DNA of 64,000 nt from Granulicella sp. L46 (lineage in GTDB: Bacteria > Acidobacteriota > Terriglobia > Terriglobales > Acidobacteriaceae), in NCBI RefSeq assembly GCF_009765785.1, contig NZ_LMUT01000012.1:839551-903550 (forward strand). The letters run 5' to 3'. The notes beneath the pieces are model-generated. The model did not search any database. It was not told where the DNA came from and saw nothing but the letters and a program-made list of their open reading frames with translations. The position numbers and the translations under genes are program-made. The number at the start of each line of letters is the position of its first letter. Position 1 is the stretch's first letter. Shown in pieces: positions 40,957 to 47,745 of the stretch.

Positions 40957-41360
40957 GCCTAAAGAGGCAATTGCAATTGGAACAATCCTCAAAGAGTAAC
41001 CATTCACTGCGTTGTCTAAGCAAAGGCTCTCCATCTTGTCGGCACGCTCCACCTGCCAGAGCCGTCGCGGCGATGCGCGACGCCGTCCAGTTTATTCAAA
41101 GCTCCGATCCGAGCCAACAAATTATGTTTTCCTATCGAGCTACGGAATCCGAAGGGCTAGATCCTCTGTTGAGCAAAACGGCCCATTATGTGAGCGCGGG
41201 ACCCGTTCGGGGGCAGCTAGAAAAAGAATAGGAACTTGATTTTCACAGGAAAATGCGCACGGAGTGATCCTCAACTCCAAATCTCGTGGCACAATTAATT
41301 TCACAATCTACGTGTCACCAGCATTGCCTCGCCCCCCTGAACTTGGCACTCAAGGGGGGC
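40957..41360. other. 404-base gap, no supported gene
   Basis: Between the gyrA fragment and the methyltransferase start there is no convincing coding region. An open frame at 40971-41231 ends RATESEGLDPLLSKTAHYVS but matches nothing I know, lacks a Shine-Dalgarno sequence, and is treated as chance. The methyltransferase promoter should lie in the right part. Confidence 0.5.
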
Positions 41361-42791
41361 ATGTCATTTCAGTTATGGGGCGTGTTTGTGGCAGCCAATG
41401 CTTCAACTCTTTCGATCAGTCAGGGACTGCTTACTTCACTTAAGCTGAACCCTAAGAACCCCCGCGTTCATAGCAACAAACAAATCCGTCAAATTGCGCA
41501 AAGCATTGAAGCTTTTGGGTTCAATGTGCCGATTTTAGTGGACAAGAATCTCAACGTAATCGCTGGCCATGGGCGTGTGCTGGCTGCACGCTCGCTTGAG
41601 TTGAATCACGTCCCGATAATTCACCTTGAGCATTTGAACGAACATCAACAACGAGCGTTCCTGCTTGCAGATAATAGGCTGTGCGAGAACGCCAGGTGGG
41701 ACGACCGACTGCTAGGGGAACAGTTGCAGATTCTTGCCGAGGCAGAACTCGACTTCAGTCTGGATGTAATCGGATTCGAGACATCAGAAATCGATCTTCT
41801 GATCGACGGCCTATCGTCAGCGAGCGCGAACGATTCCGATCCAGCGGACGATATTCCCGAGCCCCAAGGGCCAACCGTCACTCACCCTGGAGACGTATGG
41901 CAACTCGGTCGGCACCGAATAGCTTGCGCGGATAGCCTCCGAATAGAAAGCTACCAGCTCATGGAAGGAAAACTGGCTCGGGCGGTCATCGCTGATCCTC
42001 CCTATAATGTCCAAATTGATGGTCATGCGAGTGGCCTGGGCAAGGTCCGCCATCGAGACTTTGCGATGGCTTCGGGAGAGATGTCATCCGCGGAGTTTAC
42101 CGATTTCCTAAGCAAAGCGATGAAAGCGGCTGTGGCAAACAGTATCAGTGGCGCTATCAACTTCTACTTCATGGACTGGCGCCACATCAGCGAGATTCTT
42201 GCCGCGGGCAAAGAGGCGTACCCATGTCTATTGAATTTATGTGTCTGGACCAAAGACAACGCAGGTATGGGTAGCTTTTACAGGAGCGGACACGAATTGA
42301 TCTTCGTGTTCAAAAACGGAAATGGAAAGCATCAAAATAACGTTCAACTGGGCCAGTTTGGAAGGAACCGCACGAACGTCTGGAGTTATGCAGGCGCGAA
42401 TTCGTTCTCTCGATCGAATTCCGAAGGCAACCTTCTTGCCCTACATCCTACAGTGAAGCCCGTCGCGCTCGTGTCTGATGCCATTATGGACTGCACGTCT
42501 CGTGGAGACATTATTCTCGACCCATTCCTCGGTAGCGGGACGACCATTATTGCGGCAGAACGGACTCGACGAATTTGCTGCGGGATCGAACTCGATCCGC
42601 GATATGTCGATACTGCCATTCGACGGTGGCAAAGATTTACAGGCCAGTCTGCAGTCTGCGCGGGTAGTGGCGAGTTTTTCGATGCCCGGCAGGAGAACAG
42701 GATGGTTTGCAGCGGCAATGAACCGGACGATCTAAATGTCGAACAAGTGAGATCGACCAATAAAAGCCTGACTCCAGGAGGGCAACAATGA
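41361..42791 (+). CDS. ParB-domain DNA adenine/cytosine-N4 methyltransferase
   Basis: The 476-residue product joins a ParB/sulfiredoxin-like N-terminal domain (LKLNPKNPRVHSNKQIRQIA, VIAGHGRVLAAR at ~66-77) to a DNA amino-methyltransferase: motif IV DPPYN at 212-216, and the SAM-binding motif ILDPFLGSGTTIIAAERT near the C-terminus. Motif IV before the SAM site is the beta-class order. Such fusions are typical of phages and integrative elements, where they modify DNA without a partner nuclease. ATG 41361 has an AGGGGGG just upstream; GTG 41286 is an alternative. The last 4 bases overlap the DUF5681 gene. Confidence 0.9.
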   Translation: MSFQLWGVFVAANASTLSISQGLLTSLKLNPKNPRVHSNKQIRQIAQSIEAFGFNVPILVDKNLNVIAGHGRVLAARSLELNHVPIIHLEHLNEHQQRAFLLADNRLCENARWDDRLLGEQLQILAEAELDFSLDVIGFETSEIDLLIDGLSSASANDSDPADDIPEPQGPTVTHPGDVWQLGRHRIACADSLRIESYQLMEGKLARAVIADPPYNVQIDGHASGLGKVRHRDFAMASGEMSSAEFTDFLSKAMKAAVANSISGAINFYFMDWRHISEILAAGKEAYPCLLNLCVWTKDNAGMGSFYRSGHELIFVFKNGNGKHQNNVQLGQFGRNRTNVWSYAGANSFSRSNSEGNLLALHPTVKPVALVSDAIMDCTSRGDIILDPFLGSGTTIIAAERTRRICCGIELDPRYVDTAIRRWQRFTGQSAVCAGSGEFFDARQENRMVCSGNEPDDLNVEQVRSTNKSLTPGGQQ

Positions 42792-43246
42792 AATCCGGGG
42801 ACACACGGAACTACAAAGTTGGCTATGGTAAGCCGCCAACGGCGTCTCAATTCCAAAAAGGTGTATCGGGCAATCCCAAGGGGAGGCCTAAGAACCAATC
42901 GACGTTTGACTCGATCCTAAAAAAAGAGGTTAATTCGCAGATCTTAGTTACCGAAAACGGCAAGCGCAAACGCATCTCGAAAATGCAGGCGGTTGCCAAG
43001 GTGCTAGTCAACAATGCCGTGAAGGGCGGTCGATCGGACCTAAAAATGCTCATCGCGAGACTCTCGCTATGGGAGAATGAAATCCCGACTGAAACTAGCG
43101 GTTCAACTTTTCGTGACGGATTGGAGGCGAATGTGAAGGAGTTCGAGATCCCTAAAACGCGAGAAGAGGTAGAGCGCCGGATCGCAGAGCTTCTCTCTAA
43201 ACCGAGTTCGAAGATCGTAAAGATCGATTCAGAGGAAACGGAATAA
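42788..43246 (+). CDS. DUF5681 domain protein
   Basis: The 152-residue product begins with the DUF5681 signature YKVGYGKPPTASQFQKGVSG followed by NPKGRPKNQST, a basic motif common in proteins of phages and mobile elements. The rest is charged and helical. AGGAGGGC precedes the ATG, which overlaps the methyltransferase stop as ATGA, so they form an operon. The role is unknown; linkage suggests a DNA-binding partner of the methyltransferase. Confidence 0.85.
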   Translation: MKSGDTRNYKVGYGKPPTASQFQKGVSGNPKGRPKNQSTFDSILKKEVNSQILVTENGKRKRISKMQAVAKVLVNNAVKGGRSDLKMLIARLSLWENEIPTETSGSTFRDGLEANVKEFEIPKTREEVERRIAELLSKPSSKIVKIDSEETE

Positions 43247-43363
43247 AAGAATTGCTTGGCGAAATGTGACGAGTGCTTTTCCGTAGTCAGTAAAAGGGAG
43301 CGAGGAGCCTTCTCTTCAGGCGTTCGAGCGCTAGCACAAAGCTTAGAAGCTGACGCACGTCGC

Positions 43364-45073
43364 TTAATGGAGAAGGCGCTGCTTCTCCCATTCCATCGAG
43401 AGATTGGTCGTTAGCTGCGCGACCGTAAGCAACGGGGAATGGTCCCCTCTGAGGACTGCCTCCGCCCATTGAGGAGATAACGTCACAAGCCGCAGGAGCC
43501 GCGCAGTATAGTGTCGTTCCATGCCGGCACGCCGGGCCAGCTCGCGCATAGTCCTGATTTCACCATTGACGATCCACTTGTACCACGTTCTGGCCAGGGT
43601 TACGGCCTTGACCAGCGAAGGCAGTGCATCTTGATTAGGCTGCTCGTCGCTGGTAAGAATCAACCGAACCTCGCTGCCTCTCCGGGCGAATTGGAACGGT
43701 TCTCGAATCTCGACCAGCCCCGAGACCTCGGAGTTGGCCTCCCGACCAAGAAACTCTCGACCAATGGCGCCCCGGTCTATTTCGATGAGCAACTCGGAGG
43801 GCATCACCACAATCCGGGCTCGCGTCAACCCGACGACCTCGTCCTTCTGCCTTACCGTGCCATCAATCAACAAGGCCGCGCGGTGACGAGCCGCGGAGAT
43901 CAACAGCTTCATATCTCGTACGTCGAGCCCAGGAAACTGATCTGCAACCCGTATGGGGTCGGCCAGGAAAGAGCTGATTGAAAACAACACTCGGGTCTCG
44001 ATTTCGACCGCCGGGAGGCATCTGATGGGGGCCGAGTACCCTTTGTCCCTCAGCATGTAGTAAAAGTAGCGTCGCCCATTCTTATTTGCATGGGTCGGCG
44101 TGTAGATCTTTCCATCCGCCGTCGTAAGCCTGCCCTGCAGCATGCGACCCGATGCAAGATTATGTTTTGTTTTGCGAGACACCCGATTCTCTTTCAGGAG
44201 ATTCGCAGATCGATCCCACGTCTTAACATCAACGATCGGTTCGTGCTTGCCCGGGTACAGCACCCCTTTATGGATTGTCTTGCCGATGTACACCGTATTG
44301 TTGAGCAGGTGATAGAGGGTTCCTCGAGAGAGTACGGAGCCACCAAACTGTCGTCCAGTCGAGCTGGTCCTCCGTTTGCTTCGGATCTCGGATCCCTTCA
44401 AGTTCTCCTGCAACGCAGTCACACTTCGCAGTTCGAGATACAAAGCGAAGATCTTTCGCACCACCTCCGCTTCTTTTGGATTGACGACCAACTGATGATT
44501 GGCCAAGTCATAGCCCAGCGGAACGAGCCCTCCCATCCACATGCCTTTCTTCTTGGAGGCAGCCACCTTATCCCGGATCCGCTCCCCAGTGACCTCCCTC
44601 TCGAACTGAGCAAACGAGAGCAGAACGTTGAGGGTGAGCCGCCCCATCGAGGAGGTGGTATTGAACTGCTGGGTAACGGAAACGAAGCTGACGCCCTTGC
44701 TGTCGAAGGACTCCACAATCCGAGCGAAGTCGGAGAGCGACCGCGTCAAGCGATCTACCTTATAGACAACAACTGTATCGACCTTTCCCGCAGAGATATC
44801 GGTCAAGAGTTTCTTTAGCCCGGGCCGTTCCATGTTCCCACCAGAAAAACCGCCATCATCATAGTGGGCGGAGATCATCTGCCAACCCTCATGCTTCTGG
44901 CTCAGGACAAAGGCCTCACAGGCCTCCCGCTGCGCATGCAAAGAGTTGAAGGACTGGTCAAGACCCTCTTCTGAAGACTTGCGGGTATAGATGGCGCAGC
45001 GGGTGGGCTTACCGGATGGGATCACTTCCTTCTCCGAGTTGATTTCGTTCCGAAAAAGGCTGGACCGGACCAC
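43364..45073 (-). CDS. Large serine recombinase
   Basis: The 569-residue product has the resolvase catalytic domain (residues ~24-165) with Ser33 in YTRKSSEEGLDQSFNSL, the conserved VYKVDRLTRSLSDF and FAQFEREVTGERIRDKVAA, then a recombinase domain (GLVPLGYDLANHQLVVNPKE, YHLLNNTVYIGKTIHKGVLY) and a long C-terminal region. Members integrate or excise elements between short att sites. The start is GTG, overlapping the DUF2924 gene by 52 bases. It is convergent with the DUF5681 gene. The protein looks intact, so the element may still be mobile, but att sites could not be found by eye. Confidence 0.93.
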   Translation of the reverse strand: MVRSSLFRNEINSEKEVIPSGKPTRCAIYTRKSSEEGLDQSFNSLHAQREACEAFVLSQKHEGWQMISAHYDDGGFSGGNMERPGLKKLLTDISAGKVDTVVVYKVDRLTRSLSDFARIVESFDSKGVSFVSVTQQFNTTSSMGRLTLNVLLSFAQFEREVTGERIRDKVAASKKKGMWMGGLVPLGYDLANHQLVVNPKEAEVVRKIFALYLELRSVTALQENLKGSEIRSKRRTSSTGRQFGGSVLSRGTLYHLLNNTVYIGKTIHKGVLYPGKHEPIVDVKTWDRSANLLKENRVSRKTKHNLASGRMLQGRLTTADGKIYTPTHANKNGRRYFYYMLRDKGYSAPIRCLPAVEIETRVLFSISSFLADPIRVADQFPGLDVRDMKLLISAARHRAALLIDGTVRQKDEVVGLTRARIVVMPSELLIEIDRGAIGREFLGREANSEVSGLVEIREPFQFARRGSEVRLILTSDEQPNQDALPSLVKAVTLARTWYKWIVNGEIRTMRELARRAGMERHYTARLLRLVTLSPQWAEAVLRGDHSPLLTVAQLTTNLSMEWEKQRLLH

Positions 45074-45429
45074 TTTGTTCCCGTGATATGAGTTGCAATT
45101 GAGGAAAGGCTTTTGTAGGCCATTCTGTCGTACTCATAGCCATCCTTGGTTACCGCCACCTCGTGGAGCTTGCCCCTCCATTCCCGCACGATGCGGGTGC
45201 CTGCTTTCAGCCGTTTGGAATCATTGGCCCGGGCTTGAGGCAGGTTTCTGGAAGATAGGTCATGGGCCTTCTCTTGGATACGGAAGGCCAGCACCGGCCG
45301 CATCAGTTCCCTTCGAAGCCCAGGAATCGGAGAATTTCCGAATTGCTCCTCCCAAAGTTCCGCTAACTGTGAGCGCGTCATTCCGGATAGTTGTTCAATA
45401 AGATTGCTGATCGTGATTTGATCGCCCAT
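45022..45429 (-). CDS. DUF2924 family protein
   Basis: The 135-residue product matches DUF2924: LRRELMRPVLAFRIQEKAHD, then KAGTRIVREWRGKLHEVAVT and SLSSIATHITGTKWSGPAFF. DUF2924 genes are regularly found directly before large serine recombinases in phages and transposable elements, as here (52-base overlap), and may act as recombination directionality or regulatory factors; that role is inferred from linkage only. Confidence 0.9.
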   Translation of the reverse strand: MGDQITISNLIEQLSGMTRSQLAELWEEQFGNSPIPGLRRELMRPVLAFRIQEKAHDLSSRNLPQARANDSKRLKAGTRIVREWRGKLHEVAVTKDGYEYDRMAYKSLSSIATHITGTKWSGPAFFGTKSTRRRK

Positions 45430-46058: not shown

Positions 46059-46970
46059 CTACAGAGGGGGATTTCTGAAACGGTCGAGAAATGAATGAGG
46101 GGGAACGTCGCTGGTCCACGAATCGCACGGCTTTTTGGAAATCCAGTGATAGACGTTCTTGTGGGTTTTTGTTCTTGTCACATGCAAGATGACATATGGC
46201 GGCCCAATACCTAACGAGTCTTCATGGTGGCCAATGTTTAGAATTTCGAGTATCGCTTGTTGCGGATGGCCGATCACCCATGAGTTCTCTCTGTCGTATT
46301 GCACTGGATACGAAAAAATTTGGACCGAGTCCGGGAAGGTCTTCCACTTGCCATCCATCAGAACTTTATGTGGCAGAGTTTGGACAGGAACCCAATTCAC
46401 CGGTGTGAAAGCCTCATATCGAAACTTGCCATAGTAGGGAGCTGGCAGCGGCTCACTGAAGGGGTCCACAGTCAGAGTGTCAGCGGGAATGGCAATATCA
46501 TCGTTGGGAACTAAGAGTATCAGCCGATCCATCGCAGGAATAAGGTCGATTGGAACGGGCGTAGGAAATACTGTTCGCTCGACGGTCTGAGCCGTCACAT
46601 TGGGATCGTTCAATATGTATGCTAGTTCCGTATCAATGTCTCTGACATATTGGGACCTTAGTTTCTGCTCCAAGTCCTCTATGCTGACAGAATCATCGAT
46701 GAGTTGTTTTAGCTGCGCATCGGTTGAATAGCTCTCACCTGACGCACTTGTGCCAGCTGCCACACCAGCTTTCAATACAAGACCCCATTTGGTGCTATGG
46801 ACTTTACAAACCGTAGCGACGCGCTTGCCATCAAAGGTTCTCGCGCTGTCTGCGCCGATCCAGTAACCATCTGGTGTGTAGATGATGATGAGCATCGTGG
46901 CTCTGGCAGGAACAATCGCGCCCGCGACAACCAGGAGAGTTCTATATACAAAGGCTTTTGAGAATCTCAC
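46059..46970 (-). CDS. Putative secreted Ntn (proteasome-type) hydrolase
   Basis: From GTG 46970 (AAGGAG 10 bases upstream) the 303-residue product starts with a signal peptide MRFSKAFVYRTLLVVAGAIV ending PARA. Directly after the predicted cleavage site comes TMLIIIYTPDGYWIGADSAR, which parallels proteasome beta subunits: Thr25 as N-terminal nucleophile, Asp41 at mature position 17 in GADS, and Lys56 at mature position 32 (proteasome Lys33). Signal-peptide removal alone would thus free the catalytic Thr. The remaining ~240 residues (VPIDLIPAMDRLILLVPNDD, PVNWVPVQTLPHKVLMDGKW) are not recognised. A longer frame to 47021 (TTG) is rejected. Family assignment is an inference from motif spacing. 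Confidence 0.6.
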   Translation of the reverse strand: MRFSKAFVYRTLLVVAGAIVPARATMLIIIYTPDGYWIGADSARTFDGKRVATVCKVHSTKWGLVLKAGVAAGTSASGESYSTDAQLKQLIDDSVSIEDLEQKLRSQYVRDIDTELAYILNDPNVTAQTVERTVFPTPVPIDLIPAMDRLILLVPNDDIAIPADTLTVDPFSEPLPAPYYGKFRYEAFTPVNWVPVQTLPHKVLMDGKWKTFPDSVQIFSYPVQYDRENSWVIGHPQQAILEILNIGHHEDSLGIGPPYVILHVTRTKTHKNVYHWISKKPCDSWTSDVPPHSFLDRFRNPPL

Positions 46971-47067
46971 CGTGCTGGATCTCCTTGCACAACCTTTTCG
47001 CCTATGGGTGGCGAGTGCCAATCTACGCCATCACGTGGACGCATCAGAACTCCTGCCGCCCTTCCGA

Positions 47068-47745
47068 TTACTGGTTAGGCGGATGTACGCTCACTACTCC
47101 TACAACCTTCGGAACTTCAGAGTTGAAAGAAGTCACCAGTAGGACGAGTCCTTGTCTAGGAGAAAGCGGGTTAGATAAGAGAACTGTGTAATACCTCGAA
47201 TCCTTTGATACCCAAGCGCCTGCTAGGTCTGCATTTTCGGTCGCGATGAATTGCCCTCTCGGAATCGAGATCCTTGCAGGACCCAATCGGCACGGTTCCG
47301 CGCACTCGAACGAGAATGCTGGTAGTTGAAAGACTTTATCGACGCCAATGACGAGTGTTATTGCAGCGATGTCGGGGCCACCTTGCGATAGATGGTACCC
47401 ATAGGATGTCTCAAGTTCCTGCCTGGATAAGGTGTGCTCTATGTGGTTGGCGCTGGGAAGTGGGGGACCGATTTCTACGTGGGTGCTTTGGTCGCAGTTC
47501 ACGACACCAGGCGCGCAGTTGTTTTGAATGCCTTGGTTCGGAGCATTGTTGATGATGCCCTGATTCGGTGGGCCAACGGGCATTGACGGAGCTGGTGCGG
47601 CTGGTTGAGAGGCGGACGGTGTGACGACACTTCCGTTCTGACGTGGAGTGCCAGTCATTGAGGACCGCAACACAATCTCTTCAGGACCAGTTCGGCGCGG
47701 GTTCGCTTCTATCGTGCTGCTTGCAAACCTTTGCCGCAGTTTCAC
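47068..47745 (-). CDS. Hypothetical protein with Asn/Gln/Pro-rich repeats
   Basis: The product has a central low-complexity section with two NQGI words (PPNQGIINNAPNQGIQNN) of a type seen in many unassigned bacterial proteins, then CAPGVVNCDQ with two cysteines, and a C-terminal domain of about 130 residues (TLVIGVDKVFQLPAFSFECA, GQFIATENADLAGAWVSKD). No signal peptide is clear from GTG 47745; ATG 47658 is an alternative start. It ends 97 bases before the Ntn-hydrolase-like gene on the same strand, so the two could be co-transcribed. Function unknown. Confidence 0.6.
   Translation of the reverse strand: MKLRQRFASSTIEANPRRTGPEEIVLRSSMTGTPRQNGSVVTPSASQPAAPAPSMPVGPPNQGIINNAPNQGIQNNCAPGVVNCDQSTHVEIGPPLPSANHIEHTLSRQELETSYGYHLSQGGPDIAAITLVIGVDKVFQLPAFSFECAEPCRLGPARISIPRGQFIATENADLAGAWVSKDSRYYTVLLSNPLSPRQGLVLLVTSFNSEVPKVVGVVSVHPPNQ

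Follow-up and report, generated by a model that had tools for sequence, protein, structure and literature searches.

We identified a gene whose product we take, with a probability of about 0.8, to be an exported threonine-type Ntn hydrolase with a proteasome beta fold, in which the catalytic Thr1 would be bared by removal of the signal peptide. The gene lies in a stretch of DNA of 64,000 nucleotides, which is hereafter called the window. This reading combines sequence comparison with structure modelling, and from these we infer where the window protein would be cut and what its activity, substrate, and assembly may be. Judging from their sequences, the members of its family appear not to share one way of freeing the nucleophile, which is new here.

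The coding sequence, which was assigned with the help of homologues, occupies positions 46059..46970 of the minus strand and encodes 303 amino acids, with a GTG start and a TAG stop codon. A Shine-Dalgarno-like AAGGAG (46981..46986, minus strand) stands 10 nt before the GTG; the open reading frame, which had been given in the original prediction together with an appeal to its start codon and Shine-Dalgarno spacing, is confirmed here. The frame is open upstream of the GTG as far as a TTG at 47021. In all members, hydropathy and the (-3,-1) rule served to recognize signal peptides. On these grounds, and from the corresponding sites of the closest relatives, residues 1–24 of the window protein (46899..46970, minus strand) are predicted to form a Sec-type signal peptide with n-, h-, and c-regions and a signal peptidase I site. 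The hydrophobic core stops 4 residues before Thr1, and the signal peptide ends in IVPARA (A-R-A at the site itself), at once followed by Thr25 (46896..46898, minus strand), which would be Thr1 of the mature protein and is its predicted nucleophile. When Thr25 is counted as residue 1, the aspartate (Asp41; 46848..46850, minus strand) is residue 17 and the lysine (Lys56; 46803..46805, minus strand) is residue 32. The catalytic triad of proteasomes is Thr1, Asp17, and Lys33, as given in the available part of PMC8665760. Counted from its predicted mature N-terminus, the window protein thus has the residues of a proteasome-like Ntn hydrolase, with Lys at 32 as the counterpart of Lys33; these residues after PARA, which had been pointed out from the sequence of the window, also stand in columns conserved among the homologues. 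The mature domain comprises 279 amino acids (46062..46898, minus strand). The window protein had no match in Pfam (E up to 1) or in NCBIfam (E up to 5), and when it was used alone in a phmmer search of PDB sequences, it gave chance matches only.

Relatives were collected with successively broader queries. A single-protein search of the contig collection gave no match, and a search with alignment A1 gave one locus, a close relative on a Granulicella MAG contig. Alignment A1 represents the close clade of four proteins, i.e., the window protein and three others that are 39, 36, and 31% identical to it. The genome of the window itself contains a paralogue (41% identical), and among 200 genomes from the order, 3 carry relatives, that of the window being one of them. 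The profile of the close clade found matches in 5 of the 396 genomes of the phylum; these include a protein from another family, L009, which matched over the N-terminal part only (E 1.4e-4) and which shares the GPP..I and C-terminal Cys columns with the window clade. With L009 as the query, 10/396 genomes of the phylum gave matches at E up to 0.001; one match, L023, was judged by eye to be false because only its signal-peptide part matches. Alignment A3 consists of 14 untrimmed full-length sequences, the window protein included, with identities down to 11%, and its profile found matches in 42/396 genomes of the phylum (E up to 0.001) and in 20/250 genomes of the window's family (E up to 1e-5). 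Among the weak A3 matches in the phylum, 17 loci were extracted, 12 of which resemble HslV by eye, and 10 further weak places with no assigned locus were left out. The profile A6, built from ten distant members with the window clade left out, found matches in 9/162 genomes of the class to which the genome of L009 belongs (E up to 1e-6). No relative was found among viral contigs with A1 or L009 as the query, among plasmids with L009, P0001, or L017, or among phages with L017, at the limits used. It is well supported by these sequence comparisons that the homologues form a divergent, sparsely distributed family of proteasome-like Ntn proteins.

For the analyses of individual residues, 36 mature sequences, including that of the window protein, were trimmed by hand to residue 1. 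Fragments, split frames, and sequences with unclear starts (L010, L062, L065/L066, L079/L087, L083, and L084) were dropped from this table, as were L023, L038, the HslV-like matches, second fetches of the same genes, L045 (whose frame was not recovered), and L054 (whose extracted frame is no family member). One dropped sequence is a decayed copy (L010:1495-1674) that keeps ASA followed by T and stops early, and L038 is an odd copy with Arg where Thr1 would stand. Two proteins with no signal peptide (L051:1117-1809 and L052:1486-2217) have Ser at position 1 after Met; both Asp17 and Lys33 are present, and a VGGPID motif is found towards the C-terminus.

The A3 profile matched 135 chains among the PDB sequences (E up to 10), the best 60 of which are all proteasome, HslV, or BPH chains. 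The best match was BPH (5ovu; E 6.6e-4), whose residue 1 aligns with Thr1 of the profile, and among the matches listed, several BPH and mature HslV chains likewise match from their own residue 1; the proteasome beta chains 8oix_L and 8p0t_L match a C-terminal stretch of A3 instead. When profiles were compared with each other, A6 matched a profile of five HslV-like proteins with E 1.3e-6, and the profile of the window clade (A7) matched A6 with E 1.3e-9, a match that takes in only the N-terminal part (the first 79 columns). Two unrelated proteins of the window that served as negative controls scored E 0.43 and 0.57 against A6. The direct match between the window clade and the HslV-like proteins was weak (E 0.098), and the link from the window protein to proteasomes passes through intermediates and the structure model. 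Against Pfam, 6 of the 14 A3 members match Proteasome (PF00227) at E up to 1. The N-terminus of L009 scores 19.7 bits there (cut-off 22.4), and L009 scores 17.9 bits against HslV of NCBIfam (cut-off 137); since L009 misses these curated cut-offs and the window protein gives no match, the window protein is not filed as HslV or as a 20S subunit.

The predicted structures agree with this link. AlphaFold2 (AF2) modelled the mature window protein from 16 sequences with a pLDDT of 75.2 and a pTM of 0.74; three of the five models had a pLDDT < 60, and in the model used, residues 150–157, 263–266, and 275–279 are below pLDDT 50. The top Foldseek match of this model was a 20S beta subunit (E 3.1e-5), with query TM-scores of 0.28–0.42 and high rmsd values among the 50 matches listed. 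When the 1000 best Foldseek chains were aligned with VIA-align, the model gave Z 13.9 (rmsd 3.3, 170 residues aligned) with 6muv_L and Z 13.4 with Anbu, and the best 50 of the 1000 chains were all proteasome or Anbu entries. Residue 1 of the model begins the alignment in 48 of these 50 rows and pairs with residue 1 of the chain in 34, most of the remaining chains being numbered differently. The shorter relative L009, whose 229-aa core was modelled from 10 sequences, gave a better model (pLDDT 88.9, pTM 0.88), with Z 19.7 in VIA-align (rmsd 2.9, 178 aligned) and E 1.9e-9 in Foldseek. The Ntn alpha-beta-beta-alpha sandwich, for which structure prediction had been proposed as a check, is thus found in the predicted models, and the assignment of the window protein to the proteasome beta fold is well supported by them; a shared fold says nothing on activity. 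The C-terminal ~240 residues, which had been described as unfamiliar, indeed have no Pfam match, but they are predicted to complete the proteasome fold. Compared with the L009 core, the window protein has an insertion at about mature residues 165–205, and its extra length lies mainly between the strand at 159–164 and the helix at 212–226, plus a tail.

This insertion also speaks for an enzyme of another kind, an extracytoplasmic ligase or transpeptidase rather than a hydrolase, which would resemble connectase, a monomeric ligase of the proteasome fold (PMC8665760, available part). The comparison of the models places the insertion of the window clade between the last central strand and the long C-terminal helix, which we read as the H3–H4 position, and the same part of that paper considers that double rings could fail to form when an insertion separates helices H3 and H4. 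The signature insertion of connectase is described there as lying elsewhere, between S3 and S4, and no substrate or partner of such a ligase is known; therefore, we regard a ligase as unlikely, though deserving of some weight.

We then return to the preferred reading, a hydrolase activated by export, and to the site of the cut. In the close clade, Thr is preceded by ARA, AYA, APA, or VWC, so that all four proteins have an [AV]-x-[AC] site. The mature starts of the 36 members were marked by hand, and 29 members were classed as having a signal-like hydrophobic segment, with a cut-off set after the data had been seen; L019, in which a hydrophobic stretch lies 15 residues from Thr1, was classed as non-exported by the cut-off of 14. 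The (-3,-1) rule is satisfied exactly at residue 1 in 23 of the 29 signal-bearing members, compared with a maximum of 15/29 when the other offsets between -9 and +6 are tried, such maxima lying at nearby upstream offsets. The residue preceding residue 1 in these 29 is Ala, Ser, or Cys in 19, Gly in 9, and Gln in one (L018). Four fragmentary members (L065, L079, L083, and L010) were added for the type of N-terminus only, and the resulting 33 exported-looking members comprise 22 with Ala, Ser, or Cys at -1 (direct type), 10 with Gly (Gly type), and L018, which belongs to neither (SYGQ followed by T). Because the direct type is defined by its residue at -1, its score of 19/19 for the (-3,-1) rule holds partly by construction, and 23/29 is the unbiased figure. 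The claim that Thr stands at the signal peptidase site therefore held in the close clade (4/4) and failed in part of the wider family, in which 10 exported-looking members have Gly before it.

The Gly types differ from the direct types in further respects. A pair [AGSC]Q is found no more than 12 residues ahead of residue 1 in 9/10 Gly types versus 1/22 direct types. In those nine members, the nucleophile lies 3–12 residues past the [AGSC]/Q site (the slash marks the putative cut), and export by itself would therefore not suffice to free it. This pattern suggests that signal peptidase cuts before Gln in the Gly types and leaves a short propeptide; by analogy with the autolysis of proteasomes, we read sequences such as QVEAG, QTEADG, and QSARHG as propeptides that would be removed at Gly-1. 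The distance from the end of the hydrophobic core to residue 1 is 4–11 residues in the direct type (median 7, n = 19) and 4–13 in the signal-bearing Gly type (median 10, n = 9; Mann-Whitney p 0.005). Among the seven signal-less members, residue 1 is preceded by Gly in 4 and by Met in 3. Three routes can be named from these sequences: signal peptidase would cut at Thr1, a short propeptide would be shed by autolysis at Gly-1, and members with no signal peptide would probably lose Met. That one proteasome-fold family would use three or more routes and would include an exported, ATP-independent proteasome-like system is a proposal to which we give about even odds.

The layout of the Gly types gives substance to a second alternative, in which the signal peptide of the window protein would be cut a few residues upstream and Thr1 would be freed by autolysis, as in the propeptides of proteasome beta subunits. 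The (-3,-1) rule is also satisfied upstream in some direct types (11/19 at offset -5). The window clade, however, has Ala or Cys at -1 and never Gly (4/4), the [AGSC]Q pair is nearly confined to the Gly types, and the hydrophobic core ends nearer to residue 1 in the direct type. An upstream cut in the window protein consequently appears improbable, and a cut directly before Thr1 is preferred. On a tree of the family, the window clade (4 rows, support 100/100) consists of direct types throughout, and five Gly types form one clade (support 98/94). The direct type needs 5 changes on this tree compared with a mean of 11.9 after shuffling (0/500 as low), a comparison to be read with the weakness of the tree, in which 19 of the 33 inner branches are open, the deeper branches included, and bootstrap support is not settled; the starred branches force only 1 change of the direct type.

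The catalytic residues themselves are strongly conserved. The close clade (n = 4) has about 50 invariant columns, Thr25, Asp41, Ser42, and Lys56 among them, and in the 14 untrimmed sequences of A3, only five columns are invariant: T25, D41, K56, G181, and G256. The invariance of Thr25, Asp41, and Lys56, which had been proposed as a check on homologues, was thus observed in both sets (4/4 and 14/14). Among the 36 trimmed members, no columns except Asp17 and the Lys equivalent to Lys33 are free of variation, and at residue 1, 32 members have Thr and 4 have Ser; position 1 is fixed by the trimming in this set, so that its independent test is the untrimmed A3. The claim of invariance therefore extends to the wider family for Asp17 and Lys33, and only in part for Thr1, given the four members with Ser, the Arg of L038, and L084, which has no clear Thr1. 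A Gly at mature position 45 is kept in 33 of the 36 members, and in our reading of the alignment it may be the counterpart of the oxyanion-hole Gly47. These results also bear on a third alternative, in which the exported proteasome fold would have lost catalysis and would have a binding or structural role, as in the alpha subunits of the 20S proteasome. The family is very divergent and sparse (the 3/200 genomes of the order), has no widely recurring neighbour gene, and includes decayed or odd copies (L010 and L038), all of which speak for such a loss; nevertheless, Asp17, Lys33, and Thr or Ser at position 1 are each present in 36/36 aligned members, and Thr, Asp, and Lys are kept in A3 down to 11% identity, which makes the loss of catalysis slightly less probable still than an upstream cut. 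Chance, i.e., a random protein with a signal peptide whose Thr, Asp, and Lys fall at +1, 17, and 32 by accident, is refuted by this conservation together with the profile and fold results, even though each residue is common singly and the window protein alone had no significant family or PDB sequence match.

Two cysteines are also widespread in the family. Cys55 (mature Cys31; 46806..46808, minus strand) adjoins the catalytic Lys and corresponds to a Cys in 32/36 members, and Cys282 (mature Cys258; 46125..46127, minus strand) is the C-terminal Cys found in 31/36; each is a possible disulfide partner. Both are present in 29/29 signal-bearing members versus 2/7 of the others (Fisher p 5.6e-5, kinship ignored). 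The fact that the pair tracks with export suggests a disulfide.

The window gene lies near a serine recombinase gene (Pfam Resolvase and Recombinase) and a DUF2924 gene. These belong to a set of mobile-element-like genes at 41286-45429 of the window (a ParB-like DNA methylase, DUF5681, a large serine recombinase, and DUF2924), which stands between tRNA-Ser (39898) and tRNA-Glu (50342). Upstream of the window gene, on the same strand, 47068-47745 encodes a 225-aa protein with an NQGI-type repeat and no Pfam match; as a candidate second Ntn protein, it was ruled out (E 0.43 against A6). For 33 loci, the flanking ORFs on the same strand (no more than one per side) were read by eye; no recurring operon partner was seen beyond one pair, and no AAA+ gene was noticed. 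The pair consists of two close relatives from one genus (L003:54-1397 and L004:2424-3752), which have the same upstream gene 62–64 nt away; judged by eye, this gene looks like part of a ribonucleotide reductase.

At the paralogue locus, the ATG of the paralogue lies 11 nt after a Gly-type family member (L002:2388-3170), which matches A6 with E 3.7e-10 and the window clade weakly (E 0.033). On one strand, L088:9691-12634 encodes a trypsin-like serine protease whose start, judged by eye, is signal-like, the Gly-type proteasome-like protein, and the paralogue, as three neighbouring genes. Beside the paralogue in the same genome (contig C19), L088:231-9565 encodes a Cas1 (PF01867, E 4.5e-44) that is extended at length on its C-terminal side. 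Near it are two tyrosine recombinases and a protein of 1014 aa resembling DNA polymerase B, whose match to PF03175 (E 0.0022) is below the cut-off. By its gene content, this set appears casposon-like; no terminal inverted repeats were evident at this locus. The genome also has a separate HslV-like gene (PF00227, 83.3 bits).

Based on these results, the following mechanism can be proposed. The precursor would take the Sec pathway, and signal peptidase I would cut after ARA, as the site and its conservation suggest, so that the catalytic Thr1 would become the new amino terminus. Secretion and activation would then be one step, which would leave no active enzyme in the cytoplasm. In the oxidizing envelope, the domain may be locked by a disulfide that joins Cys31 to Cys258. 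By the chemistry of proteasomes, Thr1 would attack an amide or peptide bond with the help of Lys33, Asp17, and the amino group of Thr1 itself. ATP is unavailable outside the cytoplasm, and apart from the gene shared by two relatives there is no recurring partner gene, so cleavage would most likely proceed without an unfoldase, and small peptides, unfolded protein, or another amide are the likely substrates. The case for an ATP-independent peptidase is roughly balanced against the remainder, an amidase or a transpeptidase. Proteasome-like enzymes are regarded as cytosolic and are often ATP-coupled; exported members would have to work without ATP, and the coupling of activation to secretion would shield the cell from its own hydrolase. 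The direct, Gly-type, and signal-less members form natural contrasts for asking what the proteasome propeptide is for, and they also bear on whether the proteasome fold alone suffices for activity.

Several known systems can be compared with the window protein. Choloylglycine hydrolases, such as bile salt hydrolase and penicillin V acylase, are also Ntn hydrolases, belong to a different family from the proteasome-like proteins, and in the bile salt hydrolases of Bacteroidetes have a Cys nucleophile that directly follows the signal peptide. Signal peptides are reported for these enzymes in the available part of PMC8038126, so the earlier statement that Ntn hydrolases normally free the nucleophile by self-cleavage needs qualifying. 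The nucleophile of choloylglycine hydrolases is Cys, according to the available part of PMC8066178, whereas the corresponding residue of the window protein is Thr, as part of a proteasome-type triad. A term search of the main text of PMC8665760, in which Fuchs, Alva, and Lupas (2021) described 22 novel prokaryotic proteasome homologues, found no export-related or Acidobacteria terms, and the main text of a 2026 review citing it (PMC13022661) contains no signal-peptide, secretion, or periplasm terms. No paper on an exported proteasome homologue was among the matches listed; subscription literature lay largely outside this search, and novelty is not proven. BPH, Anbu, connectase, and these 22 homologues are likewise divergent and have Thr or Ser at position 1, Asp17, and Lys33, as far as the available part of PMC8665760 describes them; unlike them, and compared by that description only, 9 exported-looking members of the present family appear to have short propeptides ending in Gly. 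The window protein resembles the 20S beta subunit and HslV (PF00227) in its predicted fold, in Thr1, Asp17, and Lys33, and in its profile and structure matches, and it differs from them in its signal peptide, in the insertion before the long C-terminal helix, and in matching no Pfam or NCBIfam model.
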